64,000 bases of DNA from the NCBI RefSeq assembly GCF_007753265.1, contig NZ_CP036349.1:4249363-4313362 (forward strand), written 5' to 3'. Below, one piece after another: positions 10,191 to 64,000 of the stretch. Origin of the DNA: Botrimarina mediterranea (GTDB lineage: Bacteria; Planctomycetota; Planctomycetia; Pirellulales; Lacipirellulaceae). Positions within the stretch are counted from its first letter, which is position 1. Every line of letters begins with the position of its first letter. The notes under the pieces were generated by a model. That model did not search any database. It was not told the DNA's origin and saw only the letters and a list, made by a program, of their open reading frames with translations. A program made the position numbers and the translations under genes.

Positions 10191-10224
10191 CGTATGCACC
10201 CAATAGAAAGTCGTTTGGTGATTC

Positions 10225-10308
10225 ACTCCGGTCGCTAACGCTCCCGGCTCGCCAGCCCCTAGTCCCCCGTCCCTAGCCCCCCGTCCCTAGCACCTCGTCC
10301 CTTCTCTC
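10225..10308. repeat. Single GCGAGCCG-family arm followed by short tandem repeats
   Basis: 10225-10253 is one arm (ACTCCGGTCGCTAACGCTCC and on) of the palindrome family seen at 5761-5897. Directly after it, 10256-10304 holds about three copies of a 14-nt unit of the form CCCTAGYCCCCCGT. The whole fills the gap between the UbiA gene and the next start codon and leaves no Shine-Dalgarno sequence for that gene. Confidence 0.7.
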
Positions 10309-11151: not shown

Positions 11152-11237
11152 CCACAAAGGAACGAAGGAACCAAGGTGGGTTGGACCGTCCCAACCAACT
11201 ATATACCCCTTCCCTTCGTTCCTTAGTTCCTTTGTGG
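11152..11237. repeat. Inverted repeat with 8-nt internal period (AACNAAGG type)
   Basis: Arms 11152-11176 and 11213-11237 are reverse complements over 25 bases with two mismatches. The arm (CCACAAAGGAACGAAGGAAC and on) is made of repeated AACNAAGG units. A smaller inner stem, GTTGG/CCAAC, sits in the loop. The element begins one base after the stop of the TIM-barrel gene and ends 23 bases before the next start. Confidence 0.9.
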
Positions 11238-11260
11238 TGAATAACTGAATCCCATTGAGC

Positions 11261-45643: not shown

Positions 45644-47911
45644 TTACGCCGCCATTGGGCGATTCTCGTCGGCATGAGACACGTGCTCCTCCTCTTCATG
45701 CCCGTAACCGTAGCCATATCCGTAGCCGTATCCGTACCCCTTGCCGATCTGGTCCGAGACGCGGTTCACAACCACGCCAACCAGGGGCGCGCCGCCGGAT
45801 GTGAAGTGCCCACAGGCGCGGTTCACCAAGCGACGGTGATTCTTCTCGGGCGACACCACGAGCACGACGCCATCAACCAATCGTGCGGCGATCTGCGCGT
45901 CGCTCACCGCCAGAATTGGTGGACAATCGATGAGGACTTGGTCGTACTTCGAGTCGGCCCAGGCCAACAGCTCGGCAAAGTTTGGACTCAGAAGCAGCTC
46001 CGCGGGGTCAGGACGGCGCGGCCCCGCCGGGATGACGTCGAGCGACTCGAGTGCCGTGCGAACCACGCAGCGCTGGGCAATCAAGCCGACGTTGCCTTCT
46101 GCCGAGAGGATGTCGGTCACCCCCTCGTAGCCTTTTAATTCGAGAAGCGACGTGAGGCCAGGCTTCCGCATGTCGCAGTCGATAACGAGCGTCCGCCTTC
46201 CTGTCTGCGCGTAAGAGACAGCAAGGTTCGCCGATACGGTCGTCTTGCCGTCGCCGGGTTCGCTGCTAGTGATCACGAGCCGTTCGGAGACCTCTGCACC
46301 CAATGTGATCGCGGTGCGGAGCGTCCGGAACGACTCCGATTCAGTCGCTTGCGGTTGAGAGAACATCTGGACCTTCTCAAGCCCAACCCCCGTTCGCAAC
46401 GGCAATTCACGGATCACCGCCAAAACGCGGCAGCCGAGCTGCATCGCCATTTCTTCGGGTGACCCGAATCGGTCGTCGAGCAAGTCTTGGACGTAGACCA
46501 GACCGACGCCCAAACATAAGCCCGCCATGAGCGACGCCACCAACACAAGACGCAGCTGCGGTGAGGCGGGAAGGTCCGAAGGCAACGGCTCTTCGACGAT
46601 CGTCGCGCGGATGGGCGCCTGCACTTGGTGGATATCAACCGTGGCGATCTTCTCAAACAGGAGGTCGTGCAACTTCTCGAGCCGCTCGACCTCACGGTCG
46701 AGCATATCAACCTTCACCAAGTCGCCGCTCTGGCGCGCCGCATCAGCGCGAGCAACCTGGAACGCCTCCTCGAGTTGCCGCTCACGTTCAACGGATTGCG
46801 ACATGGCTTGGTTGAGCATGCCGACCAGGAACGGTCCCAGCTCAGCCGCTGTCAAACCAGTAGGCCGTCCCGACGCGTCGCTGCGGTAGGAGGCTAGAAA
46901 CTGCTGGGTCGAATCGATCTGCGACTTGAGCGTGGCGACCTGTGGGTGCGAAGGCCCATAGAATGGCTCCAAACGGCCGAGCTCATCACGTAGGTCGATT
47001 AGCTTTGCTTGCTGCTTGGCGAGGACTTCCATGTCATTCGGGCCCATGCCCATCGCCGCGAGCATCGCTGCCTCACCGATCGATTGCTCGACGAGTCCCA
47101 AGTGTTGCGAAAGGTCGTCGCCGCGATCAATCGCCATCTGGATCGTGGTGAGCGACGATTGCAGATCGAGTCGCCGACGCTGCGCTTCGAGGAGGGCGTC
47201 GTTGTATTGGATCGCGCGACTGATGATGGGATCGACGACGTCGTCCCGATCAGGCAGCGAAAGGTGGCCGACCCGCTCGCGCGACTGCTGCAGCTCAAGC
47301 TGCTTGGCCGCAAGGCTCTGCTCGAGTTGGTCGCGTTCGATCGTCAGAACATCGAGCACTTCGGCGGCCGTGCCGCGGTGGGTCTCGCCGACAAAATCGA
47401 CGTACGCCTCGATGACGGCTCGGACCACCGCGGCGGCCGCCTCGGGATCGAGCGAGTCGTAGCCGACGTTGATGAAGTTGGTCTTTCGCACCGTCGAGGC
47501 GGTGAGGCTATCGCCGATCGTCTCCACCCATCGATTCGGCTTCTGATCGACGAAGTCGATCCGGTGCTCGGGAGCGAGCCGTTCGATCGCCCGAGTGACC
47601 ACCTCTGAGCTCTTAACAAGTTCTCGGTGCGTCGCCATCAGATTGTCGGCGCCCGCTTGGTCATTCATCGTCGTCAGTTCGCCGGCGCTCTGATCCACGA
47701 CGAGCAGCTTCGCGGTGGAACGGTAGTAGCGTTTAGCCGTCACGTAGTAGACGGCGCCGATCGCCAAGCACCCCGCTAGCGTCCACAGCACCGTGTTGCG
47801 GCGGTACTGGACGACGCGCGTCAGACGCACCACCGCCTCGAGGGCATGCCCCCCGGCGTCCAACTCGTTGCCCCACGGCTCACCGCGGTCGTTGACGGTA
47901 TCCAGCGACAT
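45644..47911 (-). CDS. wzc: Polysaccharide co-polymerase and tyrosine autokinase (Wzc type)
   Basis: The 755-residue inner-membrane protein has two membrane helices (near 38-55 and 430-450) around a large coiled-coil periplasmic domain. The cytoplasmic BY-kinase has Walker A ITSSEPGDGKTTVSANLAVS, Walker A' LVIDCDMRKPGL and Walker B QVLIDCPPILAVSDA. The C-terminus carries a run of alternating Gly and Tyr (six Tyr in GKGYGYGYGYGYGYGH), the autophosphorylation cluster, then an acidic and His-containing tail. It controls polymer length and export through Wza. Wza is encoded 11 bases upstream in the same operon. Confidence 0.93.
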   Translation of the reverse strand: MSLDTVNDRGEPWGNELDAGGHALEAVVRLTRVVQYRRNTVLWTLAGCLAIGAVYYVTAKRYYRSTAKLLVVDQSAGELTTMNDQAGADNLMATHRELVKSSEVVTRAIERLAPEHRIDFVDQKPNRWVETIGDSLTASTVRKTNFINVGYDSLDPEAAAAVVRAVIEAYVDFVGETHRGTAAEVLDVLTIERDQLEQSLAAKQLELQQSRERVGHLSLPDRDDVVDPIISRAIQYNDALLEAQRRRLDLQSSLTTIQMAIDRGDDLSQHLGLVEQSIGEAAMLAAMGMGPNDMEVLAKQQAKLIDLRDELGRLEPFYGPSHPQVATLKSQIDSTQQFLASYRSDASGRPTGLTAAELGPFLVGMLNQAMSQSVERERQLEEAFQVARADAARQSGDLVKVDMLDREVERLEKLHDLLFEKIATVDIHQVQAPIRATIVEEPLPSDLPASPQLRLVLVASLMAGLCLGVGLVYVQDLLDDRFGSPEEMAMQLGCRVLAVIRELPLRTGVGLEKVQMFSQPQATESESFRTLRTAITLGAEVSERLVITSSEPGDGKTTVSANLAVSYAQTGRRTLVIDCDMRKPGLTSLLELKGYEGVTDILSAEGNVGLIAQRCVVRTALESLDVIPAGPRRPDPAELLLSPNFAELLAWADSKYDQVLIDCPPILAVSDAQIAARLVDGVVLVVSPEKNHRRLVNRACGHFTSGGAPLVGVVVNRVSDQIGKGYGYGYGYGYGYGHEEEEHVSHADENRPMAA
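45701..45740 (-). repeat. Short tandem repeat coding the Gly-Tyr tail of Wzc
   Basis: About six copies of a GGNTAY hexamer (read on the minus strand) encode consecutive Gly-Tyr pairs. Slippage here would change the number of phosphorylatable tyrosines without breaking the frame. Confidence 0.8.
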
Positions 47912-49343: not shown

Positions 49344-50390
49344 ATGTTCGACGGCAAGACGCTACTCGTGACAGGCGGCACCGGGTCGTTCGGCAACGAC
49401 TTCGTCAAGCTCGTGCTAGCAGAGCATTCGCCGCGGCGGGTAATCGTCTTCAGTCGCGACGAGAAGAAACAGCACGACATGCGGCTAGCCTTCGCCGACG
49501 ACCGACTGCGGTTCGTGATCGGCGACATCCGCGAATCTCGCTCGATCTCTGCAGCAATGCGAGGCGTTGACTATGTCTTCCATGCGGCAGCGCTAAAGCA
49601 AGTGCCGTCATGCGAGTTCTTCCCGATAGAAGCGGTCCGCACTAACGTCCTTGGCACGCACAACGTGCTTGAGGCCGCCGAAGAAACGGGCGTCGAGAAG
49701 CTAGTAGTCCTTAGCACCGACAAGGCGGTCCAACCGATCAATGCGATGGGCCAAACCAAGGCCCTGATGGAGAAGCTCGCCTTCGCGCGGGCCCTCAGCG
49801 ACCAGTCACGCGTCACCTACTGCGGTGTCCGCTATGGCAATGTGATGTACTCGCGCGGGTCGGTCATCCCGCTGTTCATCCAGCAGATCAAGTCCGGCAA
49901 GCCGATCACAATCACCGAACCACGCATGACGCGGCTGTTGCTGCCGCTCGCCGAAGCGGTGCGACTGGTGACGTTCGCCATGGAGAACGGCCGGCAGGGC
50001 GACCTCTTCGTCCGTAAGGCGACCTCCGCCACCGTGCAGGTTCTGGCTGAGGCGCTGCTATCACTATTCGGCGCCGACAACGCAATCGACATCGTTGGCG
50101 TCCGCGCCGGCGAGAAGCTGCACGAGATGCTCGTCACTCCCGAGGAACTGCGACGGGCGGAGGAGTTTGAAGACTACTACCGTGTCCCGTGCGAGGGTGG
50201 GCAGGACTACGACCGCTACTTCACCGATGGCGACCGCACCTCACGCTTCGTCACGGAAGGTTACACGTCCGAAAATGCGTACCAACTCACCATTGAAGAA
50301 ACCAAGCAACTGCTGATCGGCTTACCCGAGGTCCAAGCAGAACTCGTCGGCTGGAAGGCAAAGAACCCGCGACTAAAGGTGGCGGCGTGA
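49344..50390 (+). CDS. fnlA: UDP-GlcNAc 4,6-dehydratase/5-epimerase (FnlA/CapE/WbjB type)
   Basis: The 348-residue SDR enzyme starts MFDGKTLLVTGGTGSFGNDF and shows KLVVLSTDKAVQPINAMGQT, with the Met-x-x-x-Lys active site of this family (MGQTK). EPRMTRLLLPLAEAV and VRAGEKLHEMLVTPEELRRA are further marks. It starts the path from UDP-GlcNAc to UDP-L-FucNAc. The next gene overlaps it by four bases and encodes the reductase/epimerase of the same path. Confidence 0.92.
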   Translation: MFDGKTLLVTGGTGSFGNDFVKLVLAEHSPRRVIVFSRDEKKQHDMRLAFADDRLRFVIGDIRESRSISAAMRGVDYVFHAAALKQVPSCEFFPIEAVRTNVLGTHNVLEAAEETGVEKLVVLSTDKAVQPINAMGQTKALMEKLAFARALSDQSRVTYCGVRYGNVMYSRGSVIPLFIQQIKSGKPITITEPRMTRLLLPLAEAVRLVTFAMENGRQGDLFVRKATSATVQVLAEALLSLFGADNAIDIVGVRAGEKLHEMLVTPEELRRAEEFEDYYRVPCEGGQDYDRYFTDGDRTSRFVTEGYTSENAYQLTIEETKQLLIGLPEVQAELVGWKAKNPRLKVAA

Positions 50391-51532
50391 ACCGGCGCAT
50401 CGGCATCACCGGACCGAACGGCTTTGTCGCGGGGTGGGTCCTCCGCCGACTGCGGAGGGAGACCGCCTGCGAAGTCGTCACGCTCGATCGAAAAGCGTGG
50501 GACAGCCCCACCTTGCTACGGACATGGGTCGGCCATTGTGATGTAGTGATCCATCTCGCCGGCGTGAATCGCGGCGAACCCAACGCAGTCGAGTCAGCCA
50601 ATGCCGCGCTTGCCGAGCGGCTGGTCCAGGCTTGCCGCGAAACGGCGAACACGCCGCACATCATTTACGCGTCAACAACCAAGCGCACCGAGGATTCCCC
50701 CTACGGCCGCGGCAAAGTTCACGCCGAGCAGACGTTCGCCGCCTGGTCAGAAGAATCCGGCGCCAGCGTAACGACGCTCGTCGTCCCGAACGTTTACGGC
50801 GCCGGCTGCAAGCCATTCTACAACTCGGTGGTGGCGACGTTTTGCCACCAGCTTGCCCGTGGCGACCAACCGACGATCGTCGAAGACCGTACGATCGACT
50901 TCATCTGGGTGGGCGATCTTGCCGAACGCATCGCCCGCATCGCAACAGGGTCGAAGCCCCACGCGGCGATTACGGTGCAGGTTCACGGCTCCGCCGCCCT
51001 GCGCATCAGCGAGTTGCTCAAGATCCTCGATGGATTCCGTCGCGATTACTTCGAGCACGACATCGTCCCCGATTTGACGACGCAACTCCATTCGACGCTT
51101 TACACAACATTCCTCTCGCATATCGATTTGGCGAGCCACGTCCACCGACCTCCGCTTCATAGCGACGCCCGCGGAGACCTTTGCGAGGTCGTTAAGACAG
51201 CAAATGGAGGTCAGGTCTTCTTCTCGACCACCAACCCCGGCGTCACACGCGGCAATCACTACCACACCCGCAAAGCGGAGTGGTTCTGCGTGGTTCGTGG
51301 GGAGGCGACGATCCGCCTTCGGCAGATCGGAACCGACAAGGTCACCGAGTTCCACGTCACGGGCGACCGGCCGGAATACATCTCGATCCCTGTGCTGCAC
51401 AGCCATTCGATCGAGAACACCGGCGATGACGAGTTGTTGACGTTGTTCTGGTGCAACGAGCGATTCGACCCCGCCGACGCCGATACGCACTTCGAAGAAG
51501 TCCTCCCGAGCCGCATCGCCCACGCCGCCTGA
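50387..51532 (+). CDS. fnlB: UDP-amino-sugar reductase/epimerase with cupin domain (FnlB/CapF/WbjC type)
   Basis: The 381-residue protein is a two-domain CapF-type enzyme. An N-terminal SDR domain (RIGITGPNGFVAGWVLRRL, YASTTKRTEDSPYGRGK) has a shortened Tyr-x-x-x-Lys motif (YGRGK). The C-terminal cupin holds zinc-type histidines (TNPGVTRGNHYHTRKAEWFC) and the IPVLHSHSIENTG strand. It carries out epimerisation and reduction to the L-talo intermediate. Overlap with fnlA and the short gap to fnlC show one operon. Confidence 0.92.
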   Translation: MNRRIGITGPNGFVAGWVLRRLRRETACEVVTLDRKAWDSPTLLRTWVGHCDVVIHLAGVNRGEPNAVESANAALAERLVQACRETANTPHIIYASTTKRTEDSPYGRGKVHAEQTFAAWSEESGASVTTLVVPNVYGAGCKPFYNSVVATFCHQLARGDQPTIVEDRTIDFIWVGDLAERIARIATGSKPHAAITVQVHGSAALRISELLKILDGFRRDYFEHDIVPDLTTQLHSTLYTTFLSHIDLASHVHRPPLHSDARGDLCEVVKTANGGQVFFSTTNPGVTRGNHYHTRKAEWFCVVRGEATIRLRQIGTDKVTEFHVTGDRPEYISIPVLHSHSIENTGDDELLTLFWCNERFDPADADTHFEEVLPSRIAHAA

Positions 51533-51567
51533 CACCTCATGCTTTGCCGAACAGCAAGGACGCCGCT

Positions 51568-52701
51568 GTGACCGCTCCCCTCAAAGTGATGACCGTGCTC
51601 GGCACGCGTCCGGAAATCATACGGCTGTCGCGGGTGATGACGCTGCTCGATCAGCACGTGCGTCACGTCATCGTGCACACGGGACAGAACTCCGACTACG
51701 AGCTCAACGAAGTCTTCTTCGACAACCTCAACGTCCGCCAGCCCGATTACTTTTTGGGCATCCGCCGCGATTCGCTTGGAGTGATTCTAGGAGACATTCT
51801 GATTAAGACCGAGGAAGTCCTCATCGCCGAGAAGCCCGATGCGGTGCTAATCCTTGGCGACACCAACAGCGCGTTCGCGGCAGTGCTGGCAAGGCGGATG
51901 AAGGTCCCCGTCTATCACATGGAAGCAGGCAATCGTTGCTTCGACTTCAATGTTCCCGAAGAGATCAATCGGCGGATCGTTGATCACATCAGCGACTTCA
52001 ATCTGGTCTACACCGAACACGCCCGACGGAACTTGCTGGGCGAAGGCGTGCACCCGCGGCGCGTGTACCTCACCGGCTCGCCGATGCGCGAGGTCCTCGA
52101 CGCCAACCGCCCGGCTATCGAATCTTCCGACGTCACCCAGCGACTCGACCTGACTCCGCACGGCTACCTGTTGGTGAGCCTACACCGAGCCGAGAACGTC
52201 GATAACAAAAATCAGTTGCTGCAACTTCTCGGCGTCCTGAACACGCTCTGCGAGCGATTCGACATGCCGGTGATTGTCAGCACCCACCCACGCACTCGGG
52301 CGCGGCTCGACGCGGTCGACGTCACGTTCGATTCGAGAATTCAGTTTCTCAAGCCATTCGGCTATCACGACTACGTAAAGCTGCAACTCGACTCGTTCTG
52401 CACGGTCTCCGATAGCGGCACGATCAGCGAAGAGAGCTCGATCCTTGGCTTCCCCGCCGTCACGACCCGCACCGCGATGGAACGCCCCGAAGCGATGGAC
52501 TCGGGGCACATCGTGCTAACGGGTCTCGATGTCGATACGGTCGTCGCGTCGGTCGCCTTCGTCACGAAGAACCGCGATCACGCCCGCCAGCAGCCCATCG
52601 CCGCGGAGTATCAGGTGACCAACGTATCCCACCGCGTCGTGAAGCTGATCCTCGGCACCGCAAAGCTCGGCCACCTGTGGGACGGCATCCGTGCGGCTTA
52701 G
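51568..52701 (+). CDS. fnlC: UDP-N-acetyl-L-talosamine 2-epimerase (FnlC/CapG/WbjD type)
   Basis: The GTG at 51568, with AAGGA upstream, begins 377 residues; the longer frame from 51451 overlaps the previous gene and looks unused. The non-hydrolysing 2-epimerase fold is marked by KVMTVLGTRPEIIRLSRVM, IVHTGQNSDYELNEVFFDN, HMEAGNRCFDFNVPEEINRR and SDSGTISEESSILGFPAV. FDFNVPEEINRR is typical of the FucNAc branch rather than of MnaA. The enzyme makes UDP-L-FucNAc, the donor for the next glycosyltransferase. Confidence 0.92.
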   Translation: MTAPLKVMTVLGTRPEIIRLSRVMTLLDQHVRHVIVHTGQNSDYELNEVFFDNLNVRQPDYFLGIRRDSLGVILGDILIKTEEVLIAEKPDAVLILGDTNSAFAAVLARRMKVPVYHMEAGNRCFDFNVPEEINRRIVDHISDFNLVYTEHARRNLLGEGVHPRRVYLTGSPMREVLDANRPAIESSDVTQRLDLTPHGYLLVSLHRAENVDNKNQLLQLLGVLNTLCERFDMPVIVSTHPRTRARLDAVDVTFDSRIQFLKPFGYHDYVKLQLDSFCTVSDSGTISEESSILGFPAVTTRTAMERPEAMDSGHIVLTGLDVDTVVASVAFVTKNRDHARQQPIAAEYQVTNVSHRVVKLILGTAKLGHLWDGIRAA

Positions 52702-52716
52702 GAGGAGGGAAACACC

Positions 52717-53994
52717 ATGCGGATACTGATTCTGACGCAGTTCTACGATCCGGAACCTGCTTTCAAGTTCCCGGACTTGGCGCGTCAACTTGCGGCGCGT
52801 GGGCACCGAGTCCAAGTCATTACGGGATTTCCTTGCTATCCCTTTGGCAAGACCTACGCCGGCTATCGGCAATCACTATGCCAGGAGCATGTGTTGGACG
52901 GAGTTCTCGTCACGAGGGTCCCGCAAGTCCCTGACCACAGCCGTTCCGCGATACGTCGGGCGATCTACTATTTTTCCTTTGCATTGAGTGCGGCGACGAT
53001 TGGTGTCTTTAAGGCACGTCAAGCAGATGTTTTGTTAGTCTACCAGTCCGCGATGCCGACCGGCCTAGCAGGTTGGCTGGTTTCGCGTCTACGAAGAATC
53101 CCCTACGTACTCGATGTCGTCGACCTCTGGCCCGAGAGTGTGCAAGCATCTGGGATGCTTAATAGTCGAGCAGCCAGCGGAGCAATCAACTTCGCCATGA
53201 GTCTCATCTATAACGGCGCCAACCGAATCAACGTCATTACCGACGGGTATTGGCGCAACCTCGCCGCGCGCGGCATTAGTCCACTAAAGCTTTCGCTCAT
53301 CCATTGCTGGCCTGCGGAAGGGCTTTTCGATCCTGTGGCGCCCCAGCCAGCCATCCGGCGAGAGTACTGCATGGAAGGAAAGTTCAACATCGTTTACGCC
53401 GGGGCAATTGGTCCTGTCCAAGGCCTGCGTGTCCTGCTCGACGTAGCCGAGAGGCTACTTAGCGATAAGACCATCAAGATCACCGTTGCGGGTGAAGGCA
53501 TCCAACGTGTCGAATTAGAGAAAGAGGCTATCGATCGCGGCTTAACCAATCTGCAATTCGTTGGCCGCCGACCTCCCGAAGAAATACGGCGGCTATATGC
53601 TTGCGCCGATGCCCTGTTGGCTCACCTAAAGCCCGATCCTCTTTCGAGCATCTCAATCCCCTCCAAGACGTTCGCCTACATGGCAAGTGGGAAGCCTCTC
53701 TTGATGGCGGTCGAAGGCGAGGCGGCCGCCATCGTACAACGCCATGGCTGCGGCATCGCGGTGGCGCCATCCAATGCCGCAGCGCTATGTCGCGCTGTTT
53801 GCAAGCTGCGGGATATGCCTATTCTAGATCGCGAAGAGATGGGCGCCGCTGGACGACGTGCCTATTTAGATAATTACTGCTCAAGCGTCCAAGTCGCTAA
53901 GTTTGAGAATCTTCTAGGCAAAGTATCTGGGGAAGTTCTGGCCGAGGTTCGGCCGAGTCACCTGAACAGAGAGCAACACGCAACAGCCTTGTAG
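52717..53994 (+). CDS. GT4-type glycosyltransferase (WbuB-like, predicted L-FucNAc transferase)
   Basis: The 425-residue protein starts after AGGAGG at 52701-52708. The N-terminal part has MRILILTQFYDPEPAFKFPD and VLDVVDLWPESVQASGML, as in WbuB. The C-terminal GT4 domain carries FNIVYAGAIGPVQGLRVLL and the nucleotide-binding E-x7-E region around SSISIPSKTFAYMASGKPLL. WbuB proteins are predicted to transfer L-FucNAc, which fits the three genes before it. The gene is visibly lower in G+C than the fnl genes. Confidence 0.85.
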   Translation: MRILILTQFYDPEPAFKFPDLARQLAARGHRVQVITGFPCYPFGKTYAGYRQSLCQEHVLDGVLVTRVPQVPDHSRSAIRRAIYYFSFALSAATIGVFKARQADVLLVYQSAMPTGLAGWLVSRLRRIPYVLDVVDLWPESVQASGMLNSRAASGAINFAMSLIYNGANRINVITDGYWRNLAARGISPLKLSLIHCWPAEGLFDPVAPQPAIRREYCMEGKFNIVYAGAIGPVQGLRVLLDVAERLLSDKTIKITVAGEGIQRVELEKEAIDRGLTNLQFVGRRPPEEIRRLYACADALLAHLKPDPLSSISIPSKTFAYMASGKPLLMAVEGEAAAIVQRHGCGIAVAPSNAAALCRAVCKLRDMPILDREEMGAAGRRAYLDNYCSSVQVAKFENLLGKVSGEVLAEVRPSHLNREQHATAL

Positions 53995-53996
53995 TG

Positions 53997-55205
53997 ATGT
54001 CTACAAAACCTATAAACATTCCATTCTCGCGTTGGCCCCTATACGATGAGGAACAGATCGCCGCTGCGGCCGATGTGCTTCGGTCCGGCCGCGTGAATTA
54101 CTGGACCGGCCCACACGGACGCGAGTTCGAGGACGCGTTGGCCGAACGCATGCAGACCAAGCACGCTATCGCGGTAGCCAATGGGACCGTTGCCATCGAG
54201 CTCGCCCTGTTAGCGCTCGGCATAGGCCCTGGCGATGACGTCGTCGTGCCGTGCCGGACGTTTATCGCTACCGCAAGTGCAATCGTGGCTCGAGGCGCTA
54301 GGCCAGTGTTGGCGGATGTCGAACTCGATTCGCAGAATATCTCGGCTGACTCGGTTCAAGCGGTGCTGACGCCCCACACAAAAGCTGTCATTGCCGTGCA
54401 CCTTGCCGGCAGGCCGTGCGAGATGGGTCCCCTTCTCGACCTGGCGCGAGCACACAACCTGCATGTTGTCGAAGATTGCGCTCAGGCGATTGGCGCGACA
54501 TATCGAGGGTACCCGGTTGGCTCCTTGGGTGACGTGGGCTGCTATTCCTTCTGCACCGACAAAATTATCTCGACCGGCGGAGAAGGTGGCGCTCTCGTCA
54601 CTAACAGTGATAAAATTTGGAATCGAGCGTGGAGCTACAAAGATCACGGCAAGTGCCCTGAATTGATCGCCGCGCCGGCAGACAAGCCTGGGTTCCGCTG
54701 GTTGCATACGACATTTGGCACAAATTGGCGCCTCACAGGCATGCAGGCCGCGTTAGGACTGGCGCAACTCTCGAAGCTCGACGTCGCGTTGGCTGCCCGC
54801 AAGTCTAACGCCATACGGATCGATAGGTGCTGCCGCGCATGCCCGGGATTGCGAACACTCACGGCTCCCACTGAGGGGGAGCAGGCTTACTACCGATACT
54901 ACGCCTTCGTACGGACAGAGAGGCTTGCCGATGGCTGGACACGTGACCGTATTCTCCAAGCCATTGAAGCCCTGGGCGTGCCTTGTTTCAGCGGCAGTTG
55001 CGGTGAGATCTATCTCGAACGCGCTTTCGAGAGTATTCGTCCGGTAGATCGCCTGCCTATGGCGAAGCAACTAGCAGAGACAAGCCTCGCCTGGCTCGTC
55101 GACCCAACCCTCACCGAAGCGCAAATCGAAAGGACTTGCGATGCAATCCAGGCCGTGATGAAACAAGCGACACGGCTAGGGGTAGAAGACTCAATTGCCG
55201 CCTGA
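53997..55205 (+). CDS. DegT/DnrJ/EryC1/StrS family sugar aminotransferase
   Basis: The GTG at 53994 and ATG at 53997 are both possible; I use the ATG. The 402-residue enzyme has the family features RSGRVNYWTGPHGREFEDAL, IAVANGTVAIELALLALGIG, VVEDCAQAIGATYRG and the PLP-lysine loop YSFCTDKIISTGGEGGAL (Lys in TDK). Members aminate a keto-sugar nucleotide or dehydrate it. A 4-keto-6-deoxy product of the FlaA1/CapD-type dehydratase in this locus is a plausible substrate. The stop of the previous gene overlaps the start. It is convergent with the FemAB-like gene. Confidence 0.9.
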   Translation: MSTKPINIPFSRWPLYDEEQIAAAADVLRSGRVNYWTGPHGREFEDALAERMQTKHAIAVANGTVAIELALLALGIGPGDDVVVPCRTFIATASAIVARGARPVLADVELDSQNISADSVQAVLTPHTKAVIAVHLAGRPCEMGPLLDLARAHNLHVVEDCAQAIGATYRGYPVGSLGDVGCYSFCTDKIISTGGEGGALVTNSDKIWNRAWSYKDHGKCPELIAAPADKPGFRWLHTTFGTNWRLTGMQAALGLAQLSKLDVALAARKSNAIRIDRCCRACPGLRTLTAPTEGEQAYYRYYAFVRTERLADGWTRDRILQAIEALGVPCFSGSCGEIYLERAFESIRPVDRLPMAKQLAETSLAWLVDPTLTEAQIERTCDAIQAVMKQATRLGVEDSIAA

Positions 55206-56291: not shown

Positions 56292-57947
56292 CTATGCGGC
56301 TCGGTTATTGTCGCATTGGTGCGGAATCTCGGTGAAGAACCTCTCGACGGCTCGCTCTACCTTCCGCCGCTCAGCGGGGTCGTAATCGCCCAGCTTCTTC
56401 GCCGCATTGAGGGACGGTGTCGGAACGCCTCGCAAGGACGTCGTCTCGCCGTTCTTATTGAGCAGCTCCGCAACGCTAGCAACCGCGCCTGCTGCGTCGC
56501 CGCATAGGTCGGTGTGATTGATCTCGACTAGTCGAGACGAGTCAAGCATTCTAGACTGCTCTCGTATCGCTTTCTCTAGAAAAAACACCTGACCTGCGAC
56601 CTGAACTTCGGGCGATTCGCTGCGCAACCATTCATATTCCAGCGGCTTCAGCGAAACCCACTGATCGACCGACCCAAGCTGCTGCCGACGCGCCTCAAGC
56701 AATGACAGTGCGTTCTCAACCGGATCGCGCCGAACCCAGACGAAGCATGAACGCGACAGAACTTCCGCCACACGTCGTAAATGCCATGACAGCAAGAAGG
56801 ACTTGAACACCATCGGCTTGCCGAAGGCATGCGTCATATTGACGATCTGCCGGTGGAAGCAGTCCCAATCCACAGATCCTTCCGCCTCCTGCAAACGCTG
56901 CCGCATCTCTGAGTAACCGAGTAACCGGCACCAGAAGTAGCCGAATTCGTGTGGCTCCGCGATCCCGTCTGTCCGGCCGTAGCGAGAGGCAAAGCTCATC
57001 GGAGTCGCCTCTGGCATGAGCTTCTTTGATAAATGAATCCCGTAGACGGGCGCACGCCAGAAGGCTGCAACCAGGTTATTCACGTACCCCACGTCGAGTT
57101 GCGATGCTAGTAGCTGAGTCATTAGCGTTGTCCCCGAGCGGGGAGCACCAATTACGTGAATCGTGGCGTGCGTCTCCGGCATATCTTCGAGAGCGGCGTC
57201 ATGGCTCCCCGCGAGCGACGCGTTCATAGCCGTCATGATGTCTTCGTAGGCGGCATCTTTGCGGAACGCCCCCTGCATACGTGGTTCGACACGGCCGTTG
57301 TACTCCGTTGTCCCTCCCACTCTCACACCGGCAAGATCGTCCACTACTTCTGGGTTGCGATCCATTACTACCCCCGATCCCTTCGAGACTACGACAAAGG
57401 TCTTCATCCAGATCCGAAGGTCAAGTGCCAGCGAGAATTGCTCGACGTACTCAACGTCGAGCGCGACACGACGCGACCATGGGATCGTGTTCCTGCCATT
57501 GACCTGAGCCAAACCCGTTATGCCCGGCCTGAGCCTGAAGCGAAGTTCGCCTCGCCCTTCATACCTGCCGAGATGCTCGGGCAGGATGGGCCGGGGACCG
57601 ACAAACGACATCTCGCCGCGGACAATGTTCAGCAGCTGCGGCAACTCGTCGAGGCTTGTCTTCCTAAGGAACCGGCCGACACGCGTAATGCGGTTCCCCA
57701 GGACGCGCCCGCGGTTGTCTAGCAGTTCGTCGGCGTCATGCACCATCGAACGAAACTTAAAGATGGTGAATCGTCGCCCGTTCCGCCCGACTCGCTCTTG
57801 TCGGAACAGGGCGAGGCCTGGGCTGTCTAATCGTATCGCCACCACGATCGCTAGCCATAGCGGAACCGCCAACGCTAGCAACGCAACAGCAACGCAACGA
57901 TCGCCGATAGACTTGACGGCAATTTGTAGTGATTGATCGCGAGACAC
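56292..57947 (-). CDS. Phosphoglycosyl transferase fused to a sulfotransferase domain
   Basis: The 551-residue protein is one unbroken frame. Residues 1-195 are a small monotopic phosphoglycosyl transferase: one re-entrant hydrophobic helix (18-38), RFTIFKFRSMVHDADELLDN, the catalytic Asp-Glu pair in TSLDELPQL (100-101), FVGPRPILPEHL and PGITGLAQVNGRN. It should move a sugar phosphate to undecaprenyl phosphate to begin repeat-unit synthesis. After a linker (196-258), residues 260-545 match PAPS-dependent sulfotransferases: the 5'-phosphosulfate loop IGAPRSGTTLM (266-276) and a 3'-phosphate segment VWVRRDPVENALSLL (403-417). ATG codons at residues 238, 241 and 256 could also allow separate translation of the second domain. 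I do not recall this fusion from characterised proteins. Confidence 0.88.
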   Translation of the reverse strand: MSRDQSLQIAVKSIGDRCVAVALLALAVPLWLAIVVAIRLDSPGLALFRQERVGRNGRRFTIFKFRSMVHDADELLDNRGRVLGNRITRVGRFLRKTSLDELPQLLNIVRGEMSFVGPRPILPEHLGRYEGRGELRFRLRPGITGLAQVNGRNTIPWSRRVALDVEYVEQFSLALDLRIWMKTFVVVSKGSGVVMDRNPEVVDDLAGVRVGGTTEYNGRVEPRMQGAFRKDAAYEDIMTAMNASLAGSHDAALEDMPETHATIHVIGAPRSGTTLMTQLLASQLDVGYVNNLVAAFWRAPVYGIHLSKKLMPEATPMSFASRYGRTDGIAEPHEFGYFWCRLLGYSEMRQRLQEAEGSVDWDCFHRQIVNMTHAFGKPMVFKSFLLSWHLRRVAEVLSRSCFVWVRRDPVENALSLLEARRQQLGSVDQWVSLKPLEYEWLRSESPEVQVAGQVFFLEKAIREQSRMLDSSRLVEINHTDLCGDAAGAVASVAELLNKNGETTSLRGVPTPSLNAAKKLGDYDPAERRKVERAVERFFTEIPHQCDNNRAA

Positions 57948-58051: not shown

Positions 58052-59437
58052 TTGGTTGGCGGAGAGCTTTGCAGTATCAACGCGAATCTCCCTCGCCATC
58101 TCTCACTACTGCTGGCACAACCCAATTCAGCTACCTTGACCTCATCATCCCTTGCGAAGAACTCCGCTTGGACGTTGCTCGCAACCTTGTTCGCGAGATC
58201 GAGTGGCGTAGCGGCGCTTTTGTTATGCGCTGTGTGTCTTGGGCCTGAATCGTACGGCGTCGTTACGATTGTTACTTCGACGGTGCTAATGGCCGGCGGA
58301 ATCGTGGGAATCGGGTTCGGCGCCGCGGCGACGACGGCACTTGCAGCACGCCTGCATAGCGATCCAAAGCGAGCCCTAAGCGAATCAGCGGCTCTCGGTT
58401 CAGCGACGATTGGCGTGTCTCTATTGGGAGCGATTGCCCTCGCTACCTTAAGCGGCCCAATTGCACGGATCACGACAGGGCAAGCCGAATTCGCTTCCCA
58501 CTTCGCAACGGGGGCGTTCCTCGTAGTGCTGAACGCCATTGCCTTCTATCAGGCGGGAGTCTTGGCCGGACTTTCTGCATTCCGGCCGCTCGCGTTCGCA
58601 CAAGCGACCGGTGGAATCGTAGCCATCACTTGCGTGGCTGTTGGCATTAGACTCGGCCAAAGCCACGGCGCTCTCGTAGGGTTGTCGATAGGTGCTCTAG
58701 CGACTTGCTTCCTGCTCAATCGCGAAGTTCAGCGAAGTGCTCCACTATGGGCATTCGACTGGAAGCAGGGGGCTTGGCGGAGTCGTTTCGCAATCTGGTC
58801 GATGGGCCTGCCGTCGGTACTCTTATTGGGACTATCCGGACCGGCCGACTGGTGGGGGTTGGCTGCGCTGGCTCGTCAACCTGACGGATTGGTCGAAGTT
58901 GGCGTCTACAGCGCCGCCAATCAGATCGGCACGCTGCTCCGGTTTGCGCCGTTGTCAGTGGGAATCGCTTTACAATCGCACCTTGCAAAGCAATTTAGCG
59001 ATGGAGCGATCGCCCACGGGAGAGATTCCATGAAACGAGCGGTACTGGCAATCTGCGCTGGTGGCGTGTTGGTGCTGGCCATTGCTACTCCTTTGGCGCC
59101 ATGGATCATGCGCGCTTATGGTCCTGCCTACGCGGATCGCACCGAGGTCTTGGTCGCATTGATCGCAGCAGGCGTTGCAGTGGCTTTGCAGGTCATGGTG
59201 GAACGGTCACTGCTAGCCATAGCCGGCTACCGGAACACTCTCACAATCGGCCTAACCCGCTCAGCCATATTCGTCGTTGTTGCGCCGTGGGCGGTGACCG
59301 GAGGCGCCGCTGGCTTGGCCGTGTTACGAACCGTGGTGTCAGTCGTCCACGCCTTTGCGTTGATCTGGTTGTGGCGTCGATCAATCGGTACGGCTATGCA
59401 AGCCTCACTAAGTGGCGATGCTCGCATCGCGGCTTGA
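58052..59437 (+). CDS. wzx: Wzx-type oligosaccharide flippase
   Basis: The protein has up to 461 residues; the open frame starts at a TTG at 58052. A second TTG at 58136 fits the family better, because it is followed at once by the usual N-terminus SSSLAKNSAWTLLATLFARS. About 12-14 hydrophobic helices with few charges follow (for example YGVVTIVTSTVLMAGGIVGI), which is the polysaccharide-transport family of flippases. It should carry the lipid-linked repeat unit across the inner membrane. The wzy-like gene starts 25 bases after it. Confidence 0.85.
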   Translation: MVGGELCSINANLPRHLSLLLAQPNSATLTSSSLAKNSAWTLLATLFARSSGVAALLLCAVCLGPESYGVVTIVTSTVLMAGGIVGIGFGAAATTALAARLHSDPKRALSESAALGSATIGVSLLGAIALATLSGPIARITTGQAEFASHFATGAFLVVLNAIAFYQAGVLAGLSAFRPLAFAQATGGIVAITCVAVGIRLGQSHGALVGLSIGALATCFLLNREVQRSAPLWAFDWKQGAWRSRFAIWSMGLPSVLLLGLSGPADWWGLAALARQPDGLVEVGVYSAANQIGTLLRFAPLSVGIALQSHLAKQFSDGAIAHGRDSMKRAVLAICAGGVLVLAIATPLAPWIMRAYGPAYADRTEVLVALIAAGVAVALQVMVERSLLAIAGYRNTLTIGLTRSAIFVVVAPWAVTGGAAGLAVLRTVVSVVHAFALIWLWRRSIGTAMQASLSGDARIAA

Positions 59438-59462
59438 ACGACCTTCGAAGACGGACCCCCGA

Positions 59463-60827
59463 ATGGGCCACTTACACCCGCAAGCACAACGCCCCGCGTC
59501 AGGCGGCCTCCTGCTGCCGCTCGCCTATTTGCCGCTATTTGTCGGCCTACCGACACTCTCTGTACCGATTCTCAGCTTGCTCCAAATCCCGATGAGCAGG
59601 GATTCTCTCAACTTAAGCTTTAGCCTAGCGATCTCAGCCGCAGGATTCTATTTCTGGTTCAGCGGCTGGTCAGGGAAGTCGATCTGCCGGCATATCAATT
59701 TCTGTCTATTGTGGCTCACTGCATCGTTGACAGCAGGCATCTACATCGAACCCTCCAAAGAGAATCTGCTTTACTACGTACAGACTCTCTTACCAATCTT
59801 CGCAATGGCATATGGGTGGCGGCTGATCCGAACTCGTGATGATATTCCGCGGTTCATAAGAATCGCAAGCGCCACCACGAGTTTCTTTATTATTGCGCTC
59901 ACCATTTCAACAGTCCACAACTACGGACTTGTGCGGCTAACCTTCGATCGAATCAGCGTCATGAAGGAGATCGCCTATGCGATCCCACAGTTCAAGAGCT
60001 ACTACCCAATGACCGTGTTGGCGACGTTTAGTTTCGCTCTGTCCCACTACCTGTTCAGCCGTGACGGGAGCAACTATGCGAAACTATGGCTGGCCGCCCA
60101 TGCATTGTTTTTGCCGCTCTGTTGGTCGCGAGCGGGGATGCTTGGGTTCGCGTTGTGCGGCGCGATTCAGTTGCTCTATGCGGCAACCTGTGACCGTGGC
60201 CGCGGCATGCAACGGGCCGTTGTCGCGTTAGTGGTTTTTGCTGTCGTGTTGCCGGTAGCAGTCCTGAAGATGGGAAGCACTTTCGGCGCCAGGACCGACG
60301 TCCACTCGGTAGACAACAAATCTGATCGGAAGCGGCTTGAGCTATTCATAGAAGGCTGCGAGCGGATCGCCGCGAGACCTATGTTCGGCGATATGTTTAT
60401 CCCTAGCTGGGAGGAGCGGGCTGGTGGAGAAGAGGTGGACGTCAAGCGGTTATTCGGCGCTCACAACCAATACGTAGACCTGGGACTGCGTGGAGGCGTC
60501 GTCTACCTAGTAGCCGTTTGCATGCTTTTCTGGAAGGCGATATGTCAGTGCCGTCGACTCACATCGCGACGCGCGCGCGCTCTCTCCCATAACTATATGG
60601 TCGTCGGTGTTGGATCGATGTCGTTTTTGATAGCCGCCTTGATCGGATCGCACTTTCAACTCTACTTCATCCAACTACAAACAGCCGTTCCGATCTATCT
60701 GGTCGTGGGAATTACGCATCGATGCTATGCCCTAGCAACCGCGGAGCTGCGATCTGCTTCCGGTATGAGGAATGTCGGCCAAGACGACGCTTGTCTACGA
60801 ACCGTTCGCTTAAGACCCGCCGCCTAA
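59463..60827 (+). CDS. Wzy-like O-antigen polymerase/ligase family protein
   Basis: The ATG at 59463 begins 454 residues with 10-12 hydrophobic helices. The family's large loop carries PLCWSRAGMLGFALCGAIQL, RKRLELFIEGCERIAARP and FGAHNQYVDLGLRGGVVYLV, the last matching the Wzy_C-type pattern. It is the second candidate polymerase in the locus; the other at 42848-45595 has a TPR tail. One may polymerise and the other ligate. The stop lies inside the end of the convergent subtilase gene (18-base overlap). Confidence 0.82.
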   Translation: MGHLHPQAQRPASGGLLLPLAYLPLFVGLPTLSVPILSLLQIPMSRDSLNLSFSLAISAAGFYFWFSGWSGKSICRHINFCLLWLTASLTAGIYIEPSKENLLYYVQTLLPIFAMAYGWRLIRTRDDIPRFIRIASATTSFFIIALTISTVHNYGLVRLTFDRISVMKEIAYAIPQFKSYYPMTVLATFSFALSHYLFSRDGSNYAKLWLAAHALFLPLCWSRAGMLGFALCGAIQLLYAATCDRGRGMQRAVVALVVFAVVLPVAVLKMGSTFGARTDVHSVDNKSDRKRLELFIEGCERIAARPMFGDMFIPSWEERAGGEEVDVKRLFGAHNQYVDLGLRGGVVYLVAVCMLFWKAICQCRRLTSRRARALSHNYMVVGVGSMSFLIAALIGSHFQLYFIQLQTAVPIYLVVGITHRCYALATAELRSASGMRNVGQDDACLRTVRLRPAA

Positions 60828-63800
60828 CGTTGCAAAAGCAAAGTCCGTCACGCCCACATTCACGGTGTCATCTCCACCGCCATCGAGGTGAGCAGTGACG
60901 GCGTTAAAGCCAGAGGCCGCGTGATAGTAATCGTCCCGCAAGAGTGTTGCGTCGGCTCCGAGAGCCGAGAAGACATCGTCACCGGCGCCTCCGTAGAGAT
61001 CGGCCCGGTCGCTCCCTGAAGTGCTGTATGCCTGAGTTCGATCGTAGCCCAAGGCGTAGTTGTAGAATCCCGCCCCAACCATCAACGCCCGGTTATCCCA
61101 AGCTCGGTACAGGTCGTTGCCGGCCGAATCGTGGAACACCGCCGTGTCGTAGCCGCCGAGCGTGGCGTACGAAAGCACCCGTGAGAATCCCTCCGCGCGA
61201 TTTCGGTAACCGAACCCCCGCAACTCCACCTTCGTCGGGTCTGCTACTAGCTGGTCGTCTCCCGCCGAATCGTACAGCACCGCTTGGTCGTTACCGCCTG
61301 TCGCGTAGCCAATCGTCTCGTCGAAGCCACGGGCATAACTATACGACAGGCTGCTCTGCATCACGGCATGGGTGCTCCATGCCAGGAAAGCGTCATCTCC
61401 GGCCCCGCCAAAGAGCTCAGCCCGGTCCGCGCCAGTGCTCGCATACGCGTCAATCCGGTCGTAGCCCAAGGCGTAGTTGTAGAATCCCGCCCCAACCATC
61501 AACGCCCGATTATCCCAAGCTCGGTACAGGTCGTTGCCGGCCGAATCGTGGAACACCGCCGTGTCGTAGCCGCCGAGCGTGGCGTACGAAAGCACCCGTG
61601 AGAATCCCTCCGCGCGATTTCGGTAACCGAACCCCCGCAACTCCACCTTCGTCGGGTCTGCTACTAGCTGGTCGTCTCCCGCCGAATCGTACAGCACCGC
61701 TTGGTCGTTACCGCCTGTCGCGTAGCCAATCGTCTCGTCGAAGCCACGGGCATAACTATACGACAGGCTGCTCTGCATCACGGCATGGGTGCTCCATGCC
61801 AGGAAAGCGTCATCTCCGGCCCCGCCAAAGAGCTCAGCCCGGTCCGCGCCAGTGCTCGCATACGCGTCAATCCGGTCGTAGCCCAAGGCGTAGTTGTAGA
61901 ATCCCGCCCCAACCATCAACGCCCGATTATCCCAAGCTCGGTACAGGTCGTTGCCGGCCGAATCGTGGAACACCGCCGTGTCGTAGCCGCCGAGCGTGGC
62001 GTATGAAAGCACCCGTGAGAATCCCTCCGCGCGATTTCGGTAACCGACCCCCCGCAACTCCACCTTCGTCGGGTCCGCTACTAGCTGGTCGTCTCCCGCC
62101 GAATCGTACAGCACCGCTTGGTCGTTACCGCCTCCACCTGTAACGACGGTGTAGTCAATGTTTGACGAACTTGCGGAATAACCGGCGCCTGAGATCGAGC
62201 CCCCGGCGCTATTTAGTGTTGCGGCATCGTCACCCACGCCGCCGTTGAGATCCACGCGGTCATACCCACCCACACCTCCGTCCAGCTGAAAGGCGCCGGC
62301 ATGAGAACTGGCTATTGTGTAGGTAACACTATTCAAACTTACCGAGTGCGAACCGCCGCCAGCGCTAAACGACAGGGAGTCATCCCCCCCCGTCCCCACC
62401 AACGTCGCTACGCCGCCGCTTACTGTCAACGCGTTCGTCATCCGCAGGTTGTAGTCCGCCGAGTTCCCAGTCAGTCGGAGGTAGAGCGTTTCCCCCGCAG
62501 TGACTTGCACGTCGGCCCTCGTTCCGTCGGCGGCGAGGGCGCCCATCTGGGCGTCGTAGATCGCGACCGTCGCCGCGCCGCTCTGGGCGATTGTCTCGGC
62601 GGTGAAGTAGCCCGTGCGGCCGGCAGTGACTTGGTACCAGGTCTCGCCGTTGACGGAGAGACCGGTGCGGGTTTCTTGTGGGCCGATCGAGCCCCACTCG
62701 ACCGCCGCGAAACTCGCTTCGAGATCAACGGAGAGGTCGTAGTAGCCGAGGCCGTCGGAGGTTGCGAGGGAGAACGTGTACGTCTGCCCGGCGACGACAT
62801 CGATGACGCACTCGCCCGCTTGATTGACCGTCCAGCTGTTCGCACCCCACACATTCCATTGAGCGGCCAACTCGTGCGACTGCGTCGCGCTGATCGTCAC
62901 GGTCCCAGAGGCGCCGGCGACGAACTTGAACGTGTCGGCGTCGTCAAGCGTGCTGATGACGCCGCTCAGGTTCGCTAGGGGCGTCGCGCCCGAGTCGTTG
63001 ATCGTTCCCAGGTTGTAGGCGTTTACCTGCGACGAGGTGAAGTCGTCGGCGGGCATCAGGGCGTCGATCGCCGCGAAGAGGTTGAGCCGTTTGAAGTTGG
63101 TTGAGGTGGCCGAATCGTAGAACGTGTCGGCCGTCGCCATCATGTGGTTGTAAATGTCCCACTGGTCGATTCCGGTCTGGCCGACGAACTCCATCGCCTG
63201 GCGGATCAACACGCTCGCGCCGGCGACGTACGGCGCCGCCATGCTGGTGCCCGACATACTCAGCCAATCGTCGTCGATTGTGTCGGCGTCGTTGGCGGCG
63301 TAGTCGGGGACGGTGCTGGTGATGTATCGGCCCGGCGCGGCGATGGCGTTCTCAGCGCGCTGGCTGAAGTAGCTGAGCTGTCCGTTGCCGTCGGTCGCCA
63401 TTACGGGGACGACGTGATCGCTGGCCGCTGGGTAGCTGAGGCCCTTGGTGTTGTAGTTCGTGAAACTATTGCCGGCCGATACGGAGATAAAAATCCCTAC
63501 CGACTCCAGCTGGGCGAACTCGTTCTCGAGCATTGCCCAGGCGGGGTTGCTCATCGAGTTCCATTCGGTTCCCAGTGAGAGGTTGACCGCCGTGATCGGG
63601 TTGGCGTAGCTGTTGCGGTTGTCATAGGTCCATTGGAGAGCCTGCTCGACCCAGTGGAAGTATCCATTACCGGCGTCGTCGAAGACGCGCAGGCCCACCA
63701 AGTCGACTCCCGTCGAAACGCCCGAATGGTTGCCGGCTCCCTGAGCGCCGATAATGCCAGCAACGTGCGTACCGTGGGCCGATTTGGGGCCCTGGTCGTC

Positions 63801-64000
63801 GTAGAAGTTGGCGTCGTTTTCGGTGAAGTCCCAACCCCCGACAACCTTGTAGTTCGCGCCGACGCCGCCCCCCAACGCATTATGGCTGTAGGCGATGCCG
63901 GTATCGATCACCGCGACGGTCTGCCCGACGCCGGTGAAGCCATACTTGGCGAGGACGTCGTCTTGGCCGGTCTGCTGATTCGCTTCGTGGAGCGTCTGCT
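60810..64000 (-). CDS. Subtilisin-family (S8) surface protease with C-terminal tandem repeats, 5' end outside window
   Basis: The frame is open to the right edge, so the N-terminus is missing. The S8 catalytic triad is present: Asp in VAVIDTGIAYSHN (about 63905), His in SAHGTHVAGIIGA (about 63775) and Ser in LSMSGTSMAAPYVAGA (about 63245). A pre-peptidase-like beta domain follows, at about 62640-63030 (GTINDSGATPLANLSGVIST; TVTISATQSHELAAQWNVWG), and then a low-complexity beta domain. The C-terminus (61040-62133) has 2.6 nearly identical copies of a 139-residue unit, itself three 46-47-residue repeats starting with D/G-x-AG-x-D. Such Asp/Gly-rich repeats suggest calcium-binding beta structure. 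A secreted or surface location is likely. Confidence 0.9.
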   Translation of the reverse strand, partial: QTLHEANQQTGQDDVLAKYGFTGVGQTVAVIDTGIAYSHNALGGGVGANYKVVGGWDFTENDANFYDDQGPKSAHGTHVAGIIGAQGAGNHSGVSTGVDLVGLRVFDDAGNGYFHWVEQALQWTYDNRNSYANPITAVNLSLGTEWNSMSNPAWAMLENEFAQLESVGIFISVSAGNSFTNYNTKGLSYPAASDHVVPVMATDGNGQLSYFSQRAENAIAAPGRYITSTVPDYAANDADTIDDDWLSMSGTSMAAPYVAGASVLIRQAMEFVGQTGIDQWDIYNHMMATADTFYDSATSTNFKRLNLFAAIDALMPADDFTSSQVNAYNLGTINDSGATPLANLSGVISTLDDADTFKFVAGASGTVTISATQSHELAAQWNVWGANSWTVNQAGECVIDVVAGQTYTFSLATSDGLGYYDLSVDLEASFAAVEWGSIGPQETRTGLSVNGETWYQVTAGRTGYFTAETIAQSGAATVAIYDAQMGALAADGTRADVQVTAGETLYLRLTGNSADYNLRMTNALTVSGGVATLVGTGGDDSLSFSAGGGSHSVSLNSVTYTIASSHAGAFQLDGGVGGYDRVDLNGGVGDDAATLNSAGGSISGAGYSASSSNIDYTVVTGGGGNDQAVLYDSAGDDQLVADPTKVELRGVGYRNRAEGFSRVLSYATLGGYDTAVFHDSAGNDLYRAWDNRALMVGAGFYNYALGYDRIDAYASTGADRAELFGGAGDDAFLAWSTHAVMQSSLSYSYARGFDETIGYATGGNDQAVLYDSAGDDQLVADPTKVELRGFGYRNRAEGFSRVLSYATLGGYDTAVFHDSAGNDLYRAWDNRALMVGAGFYNYALGYDRIDAYASTGADRAELFGGAGDDAFLAWSTHAVMQSSLSYSYARGFDETIGYATGGNDQAVLYDSAGDDQLVADPTKVELRGFGYRNRAEGFSRVLSYATLGGYDTAVFHDSAGNDLYRAWDNRALMVGAGFYNYALGYDRTQAYSTSGSDRADLYGGAGDDVFSALGADATLLRDDYYHAASGFNAVTAHLDGGGDDTVNVGVTDFAFATLGGGS
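61040..62133 (-). repeat. 417-bp tandem repeat inside the subtilase gene, 2.6 copies
   Basis: The plus-strand blocks 61284-61700 and 61701-62117 match almost base for base, and 61040-61283 matches the equivalent part of the next unit. A few scattered differences (for example a C/T near 62003 and a T/C near 62076) mark the copy nearest the protease domain. Third-codon positions are almost unchanged, so the duplication or homogenisation is recent. Each unit contains three diverged 46-47-residue sub-repeats, so an older triplet was amplified as a block. Confidence 0.95.

Follow-up and report, generated by a model that had tools for sequence, protein, structure and literature searches.

The window, a 64,000-nucleotide stretch of Botrimarina mediterranea DNA, encodes a real and conserved bifunctional phosphoglycosyl transferase (PGT), in which a monotopic PGT and a PAPS-type sulfotransferase (ST) share one open reading frame (Table 1). 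The PAPS-binding positions of the ST half are intact, the gene sits in the company of polysaccharide genes, and closely related STs are recurrently paired with PGTs as separate genes. This recurrence of the PGT–ST pair suggests sulfation right at the outset of glycan assembly. The timing and the intermediate of bacterial polysaccharide sulfation seem to be largely untested, and the fusion gives a testable handle on them: together with the adjacent separate pairs in two phyla, it names the lipid-linked first sugar as the intermediate to test. The fusion protein could also serve to make glycans that carry sulfate at a defined position.

Table 1. Features of the PGT–ST fusion gene and of its neighbors in the window.
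Feature	Coordinates	Strand	Details
PGT–ST fusion gene	56292..57947	(-)	GTG start, TAG stop, 551 aa; single open frame
Monotopic PGT domain, PglC size	57387..57914	(-)	residues 12-187; Bac_transf PF02397, E 8.5e-59
Asp100-Glu101	57645..57650	(-)	invariant across 3 fused proteins
Linker, predicted unstructured	57312..57356	(-)	residues 198-212, pLDDT <50 (AlphaFold2)
Sulfotransferase domain	56460..57161	(-)	residues 263-496; Sulfotransfer_3 PF13469; PAPS sulfotransferase fold
5'-phosphosulfate loop GAPRSGTT	57126..57149	(-)	residues 267-274; aligned with tyrosylprotein sulfotransferase loop GVPRSGTT
3'-phosphate-binding stretch R407..S415 (RDPVENALS)	56703..56729	(-)	aligned with RDgrASVHS of TPST1
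FemAB/GNAT-like acyltransferase, 351 aa	55227..56282	(-)	9 bp behind fusion, same strand; PF13480 E 4.9e-15, PF02388 E 1.4e-11
DegT-type sugar 4-aminotransferase	53994..55205	(+)	PF01041 E 5.3e-88
GT4 glycosyltransferase, WcaI family-like	52717..53994	(+)	
FnlA-, WbcJ/FnlB-, WecB/FnlC-like genes (UDP-L-FucNAc-type pathway)	49344..52701	(+)	
Membrane-type UDP-GlcNAc 4,6-dehydratase homologue, PglF/WbpM type, 612 aa	41013..42851	(-)	PF02719 375 bits
Wzx-like flippase	58052..59437	(+)	PF01943 E 1.1e-8
Wzy/O-antigen ligase-like polymerase	59412..60827	(+)	PF04932 E 2.3e-8
Wzc-like co-polymerase with tyrosine autokinase	45644..47911	(-)	TIGR01007 174 bits > cut-off 108

A conserved fusion of two complete enzymes

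The initial annotation had read the frame as a complete PGT joined to a complete ST. Profile searches bore this out, with Bac_transf matched over profile positions 1-177 of 179 and Sulfotransfer_3 matched at E 1.2e-11 (45.8 bits, cut-off 27); besides these two, no further Pfam family matched the 551-aa protein at E 0.01. The motifs it had singled out, DE at residues 100-101, which we take to be the catalytic dyad of the PGT family, and GAPRSGTTL at 267-275, lie at exactly those positions; the strand, on which it was silent, is minus. The stop-to-stop frame comprises 594 codons, and the GTG start is plausible because two ATG-started relatives align near residue 1. The genome is a single contig of 5.87 Mb with four PGT-domain places, and among the best candidates scored there, an ST falls within the match at the fusion only.

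A search of 147 genomes recovered both domains in at least three of them among the matches listed, namely the window's own genome (G000), G009, and G038, which places the fused gene in at least 3 of 43 genomes from a single family (G000-G042), each of a different genus. The remaining listed matches cover the PGT half, the longest reaching residue 240 through stops. The fused proteins of G009 and G038 are 54% and 49% identical to that of the window, with both domains and active sites aligned, and their frames are free of stops. The two-domain architecture thus occurs in other genomes, and a sequencing or assembly error joining two separate genes, which would have undone the initial reading, is ruled out by a fusion that is intact in two further genera.

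Outside the family, no fusion was seen among the best candidates per genome in the ST-profile scans; the genome scans score only the best first-look candidates, at most five with the ST alignment and at most nine with the protein. Frames at the ST places outside the family were at most 495 codons long, too short for a PGT and an ST of this size, apart from two longer ones in G254 (695 codons) and G226 (635 codons, with a stop), and no PGT was found in the regions searched around these two. A phage or plasmid origin of the fusion was also considered and rejected: in tblastn searches no phage record among the 40 matched covered 80% of the whole protein (the five matches listed all fall on the PGT half), and the plasmid matches, two records at 31.5% and 26.9% identity, were to the ST half alone, with a Phycisphaera mikurensis plasmid record among those matched by this half.

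The PGT half closely resembles a solved enzyme. Campylobacter PglC (PDB 8e37) was the best PDB match by sequence (phmmer E 2.8e-37) and the first Foldseek match (E 3e-13), with WbaP next. PglC (8e37, 8g1n) has the same fold, size, and DE dyad, at 38-39% identity in the fold match; the solved form has 205 residues, and the window protein adds to it the linker and the ST. The model places a helix at residues 3-41, within which P29 is invariant in the three fused proteins, a candidate for the proline-broken re-entrant membrane helix of monotopic PGTs. The full-length AlphaFold2 model (mean pLDDT 89.2, pTM 0.67) shows two domains predicted with confidence and a disordered linker between them.

The ST half appears equipped to bind PAPS. 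Across 25 aligned STs, G267, R270, G272, and T274 are invariant, as are R407, N291, and K382, and S415 and E334 are nearly so, with N291, K382, and E334 as candidates for the catalytic base; a profile of these sequences aligns with TPST1 at the 5' loop, at the Lys of K382, and at R407..S415. The loss of key PAPS-binding residues, a second possible objection to the initial annotation, was therefore not seen. Modeled alone, the ST reached a pLDDT of 91.6 and a pTM of 0.91, and all 50 PDB fold matches listed for this model are sulfotransferases or sulfotransferase domains, led by STF9, STF1, and TPST2. The ST part of the full-length model likewise matched mycobacterial STF1 (E 3.7e-6) and human TPST2 (E 7.8e-6), and a viral fold library yielded four matches with E 0.001 or lower, all weak and all to sulfotransferases. 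STF9, STF1, and the tyrosylprotein sulfotransferases (2z6v, 2zq5, 3ap3, 5wrj) share the fold, the 5' loop, and the 3'-phosphate stretch with the ST-only model at 10-16% identity and TM 0.37-0.52, a distance at which the acceptor is not inferable from them. Because a phmmer search with the single ST-half sequence gave no PDB sulfotransferase at E 1, the acceptor class is not readable from solved relatives. Three places in the genome exceed the cut-off for the APS kinase family, and to judge from these matches they can supply PAPS.

Bifunctional monotopic PGTs have already been described, and were reportedly named Bi-PGTs by O'Toole et al. 2021. PMC10942596 describes them as PGT cores extended at either terminus, N or C, by a fused functional domain, and the window protein fits that description, with a functional domain and a PGT core in one frame in three genomes. 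The combination of PGT and ST is not named in the literature that we found, in which no sulfotransferase appears as a PGT fusion partner; the survey of O'Toole et al. 2021 may list one.

PGTs beside related sulfotransferases

Relatives of the ST half were collected with a profile built from four ST sequences and run over four genome samples that overlap in part. In the order scan, 18 of 396 genomes matched at E 1e-15, and six places scored above 290 bits: the three fusions and single places in G745, G589, and G758. The phylum scan gave matches in 12 of 392 genomes at E 1e-10, the best besides the window's own gene scoring 165.5 bits. For the phylum of a Psychroflexus MAG, 12 of 395 genomes matched at E 1e-15, with the top places in G776, G837, and G1003 (each above 340 bits) and G1038 (237 bits), and for the Lutimaribacter phylum 4 of 398 genomes matched, at 126.8 bits or less. 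The four profile scans yielded 50 ST places, 20 of which (L049-L051, L074, L077-L085, L102-L104, and L130-L133) lie outside the tree and census described here. The ST sequences of L041-L045, L047, L048, L052, and L053 were taken from search matches and the others from simple ORF calls.

The three fused and six separate STs group together, with support 86/93, when 30 STs are placed in one tree. This group of nine close STs and the 21 distant ones were compared by tblastn across 29 regions; the split is that of the tree, and it predates the neighbor count and postdates sight of some neighborhoods. All nine close STs lie on or beside a PGT: three are fused to it, five are on the same strand (L005, L086, L087, L106, and L107), and one is convergent (L088), so that six genomes from two phyla carry the ST as a separate gene beside the PGT. 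Only one of the 21 distant STs has a PGT in its region (L110, 7.6 kb off). Conversely, an ST was found near none of 35 other PGT loci (L013-L039, L002-L004, and L006-L010, which are not a random sample) within flanks that were mostly 1.5 kb on either side and shorter at contig ends.

The PGTs themselves fall into different lineages. Among 46 PGTs placed in a tree, the six ST-linked PGTs of planctomycetes form one group apart from the 35 others (97/85), and the ST-linked PGTs of Bacteroidota (L005, L106, and L107, together with L110) fall within another lineage. A single clade of all nine ST-linked PGTs was rejected (AU test, p 0.0006), in an analysis whose tree bootstrap had yet to converge completely. 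Since the PGTs of the two phyla belong to different lineages, the pairing apparently has more than one origin. An ST paired with PGTs of two lineages is the simplest reading of these trees, and it argues that the pairing matters.

As to the fusion itself, a clade of the three fused PGTs is absent from the best tree and is not rejected (AU p 0.21), and therefore one fusion with later splitting and several fusions are both possible. The unfused PGT of G745 falls among the fused ones with weak support (97/65). In this genome, a palindromic element (positions 2463-2535 of L086) parts the PGT from the ST. Its 23-base arm occurs in 526 copies in G745 (257 + 269), with no copies of a reversed-pattern control, and was absent from the four other genomes tried. 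The G745 pair is possibly a once-fused gene that was split at the palindrome.

Acyltransferase and aminotransferase genes also accompany these STs. A FemAB/GNAT-like gene lies within 1.7 kb of eight of the nine close STs (the ninth, L005, is on a contig that ends inside the ST); in L107, two genes intervene between the two. Several FemAB queries were first chosen by eye, and Pfam then confirmed a GNAT domain above its cut-off in seven of the eight neighbors, the exception being L087, whose FemAB-like N-terminal half has no Pfam match at E 0.001. A DegT aminotransferase is present in the regions of five of the nine; three of the remaining four are on short contigs, and the fourth, L088 (19 kb), has none. 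Around the distant STs, FemAB-like genes lie within 200 bp in 7 of 21 cases and within 1.2 kb in 8 of 21, all eight with GNAT above the Pfam cut-off, and DegT genes lie within 200 bp in 3 of 21. Given this census and its converse control, acyltransferase and aminotransferase genes accompany the ST even where there is no PGT, and it is in the close group only that the PGT is a constant.

Seven distant STs (L056, L059, L091, L108, L111, L112, and L113) are immediate neighbors of FemAB/GNAT-like genes, and the searched regions around them showed no PGT; they mark a wider partnership of ST and acyltransferase beyond the PGT-linked loci. FemAB-like genes also lie beside 3 of the 35 PGTs without an ST (L016, L028, and L033, in searched flanks of mostly 1.5 kb a side), where the first sugar may be acylated without being sulfated.

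Gene company and candidate role

Judged by its neighbors, the fusion gene lies inside a Wzx/Wzy-type cluster that looks equipped to make a 4-amino sugar with an N-acyl group; which sugar exactly is a matter of conjecture. The best NCBIfam match of the DegT protein is PseC, at 227 bits below the cut-off of 423.5, and the 4,6-dehydratase homologue scores 170 bits against the PseB model, again below cut-off. In the FnlA-WbcJ-WecB-like trio, the WecB model alone is over its cut-off, and FnlA is below the NCBIfam equivalog cut-off. Much of this company recurs at the other fusions: homologues of FemAB (46%), DegT (56%), GT4 (54%), and WecB (72%) lie within 9 kb of the fusion in G009, and the 4.7-kb contig of G038 carries homologues of FemAB (28%) and GT4 (58%), the GT4 homologues in both being within 6.4 kb. 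The G038 cluster also has a sugar acetyltransferase of the NeuD/PglB/VioB type above cut-off, the only PglD-type acetyltransferase to exceed its cut-off among the proteins scanned, which included part of those of the window. In Bacteroidota, the L106 locus reads FnlABC-like genes, GTs, PGT, ST, FemAB, DegT, and dehydratase. Its DegT protein and that of L107 share 30-32% identity with the window's DegT protein, and LegC is the best model for both, below cut-off.

In L087 of G589, a FemAB-like part and DegT form one 753-aa frame directly behind the PGT–ST pair (10179-12440). Pfam recognizes only the DegT part of this protein, and the FemAB-like part matches the FemAB protein of the window by BLAST at E 2.3e-16. 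A second fusion in the same pathway gives a hint of a multi-enzyme assembly.

We tentatively favor, at not quite an even chance, a bifunctional initiator that links an acylated amino sugar to the lipid through its PGT and then, through the tethered ST, adds sulfate to this first residue or to the N-acyl group it carries. The N-terminal PglC-like domain would sit in the inner leaflet, take an acylated amino-sugar 1-phosphate off UDP, and attach it to undecaprenyl phosphate at the cytoplasmic face. The sugar is probably of the 2,4-diamino-2,4,6-trideoxy (bacillosamine) kind; its synthesis would fall to the 4,6-dehydratase and the DegT aminotransferase, and its N-acylation to the FemAB-like neighbor. 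The ST, on its flexible linker, would then use cytosolic PAPS to sulfate the first residue or its N-acyl substituent ahead of extension by the GT4 enzymes and flipping by Wzx, with the PGT presumably acting before the ST; we infer both the acceptor atom and what is gained by tethering. In a 2,4-diacylamino-2,4,6-trideoxy sugar, O3 is the only free ring hydroxyl, and in the Campylobacter pathway the chain grows at O3 (cf. GalNAc-alpha-1,3-diNAcBac in the family name). Because this sole free hydroxyl carries chain growth, the acyl group laid down by FemAB would be an attractive sulfate acceptor. In a more specific form, which we regard as unlikely, the FemAB-like enzyme would acylate or aminoacylate the 4-amino group of the first sugar and the fused ST would sulfate that group on the Und-P-loaded sugar, leaving the sulfate in the primer; if so, the sulfate may be a tag read by the next glycosyltransferase, Wzx, or Wzy.

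The bifunctional initiator is favored by the presence of a PGT at 9 of 9 close STs versus 1 of 21 distant ones and by the converse control (0 of 35), and it is in keeping with the fusion in 3 of 43 family genomes, the separate lineages of the ST-linked PGTs, the FemAB gene at 8 of 9 close STs, the gene order of L106, the acetyltransferase of G038, the APS kinases, and the PglC fold match. Against it stand several observations. FnlABC make a different sugar, PGT and ST are convergent in L088 and do not form one operon there, two genes separate ST from FemAB in L107, and FemAB-like genes also accompany 3 of the 35 PGTs without an ST. Since 7 of the 21 distant STs have FemAB within 200 bp and no PGT, the ST may serve the product of FemAB and not that of the PGT. 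A bacillosamine-type sugar is conjectural and might differ from locus to locus, because DegT and FnlA fall below their cut-offs and the L106 and L107 DegT proteins are so distant from that of the window.

Should the ST act on a later sugar of the lipid-linked repeat, for example one of the L-FucNAc type, the fusion would only place it at the membrane and tie its amount to that of the initiator. FnlABC-like genes in the window and in L106 fit such a role, a bacillosamine-type sugar would leave only O3, the site of chain growth, and the flexible linker of the model would let the ST reach longer acceptors; we nonetheless hold this to be somewhat unlikely, as the PGT is the constant neighbor or fusion partner of close STs, and the regions of L087, L088, and L107, with their adjacent PGT and ST, showed no WbcJ- or WecB-like genes. 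The ST could also modify a UDP-sugar, or the acyl donor, before the PGT acts, with the fusion channeling the sulfated UDP-sugar to the PGT. The STs that lie within 200 bp of FemAB/GNAT (7 of 21) or DegT genes (3 of 21) even without a PGT speak for this, but a soluble enzyme would suffice for the step and the pairing with a membrane PGT in two lineages would go unexplained, which makes it in our view quite unlikely.

It is more improbable still that co-regulated but functionally separate halves of one pathway were joined by chance, with the ST acting elsewhere or inactive. Although the fusion is rare (3 of 43 family genomes among the matches listed) and the G745 pair, parted at a high-copy palindrome, indicates that joining and splitting may be easy, the PAPS-binding positions are conserved over 25 STs, the fusion has been kept in three genera at about 50% identity, and PGT and ST are adjacent in six further genomes.

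The initial annotation had gone on to place sulfation at the site of initiation, with the first sugar or the growing unit as a possible acceptor inside the cytoplasm rather than after export. The tie to initiation can fairly be drawn from the complete domains, the PAPS positions, the conserved architecture, and the adjacent separate PGT and ST genes. Cytoplasmic sulfation as a special result of the fusion has to be given up: the general Wzx/Wzy scheme set out in PMC8205485 already has modification enzymes act on the lipid-linked unit on the cytoplasmic side. As for the first sugar as acceptor, the FemAB partner, present also without a PGT, makes the acyl-amino substituent as good a candidate as the sugar ring.

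Known sulfated glycans offer partial parallels. Synechan (xss) and marine CPS are made by Wzx/Wzy or ABC clusters with PAPS sulfotransferases that are free-standing, and the relevant sections of PMC8205485, PMC11641403, and PMC11766843 mention no fusion to an initiator and give no tested sulfotransferase acceptor; in the corresponding part of PMC11641403, the exact sulfotransferase functions are given as unknown, and one enzyme near the rhamnose operon is suggested to act on rhamnose. The Moumouvirus glycan cluster (PMC10117803) likewise has a dehydratase, an aminotransferase, an acetyltransferase, an FnlABC-like trio, an APS kinase, and a sulfotransferase; it differs in being viral, with no PGT and no PGT fusion among the rows of its table considered here.

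At the edge of the cluster, positions 60810-63998 of the minus strand encode a subtilase-like protein (recognized by eye) whose frame runs off the window. Its C-terminal part contains a 417-base tandem repeat in 2.6 copies with 99% matches, a recent repeat expansion adjoining the polysaccharide cluster.
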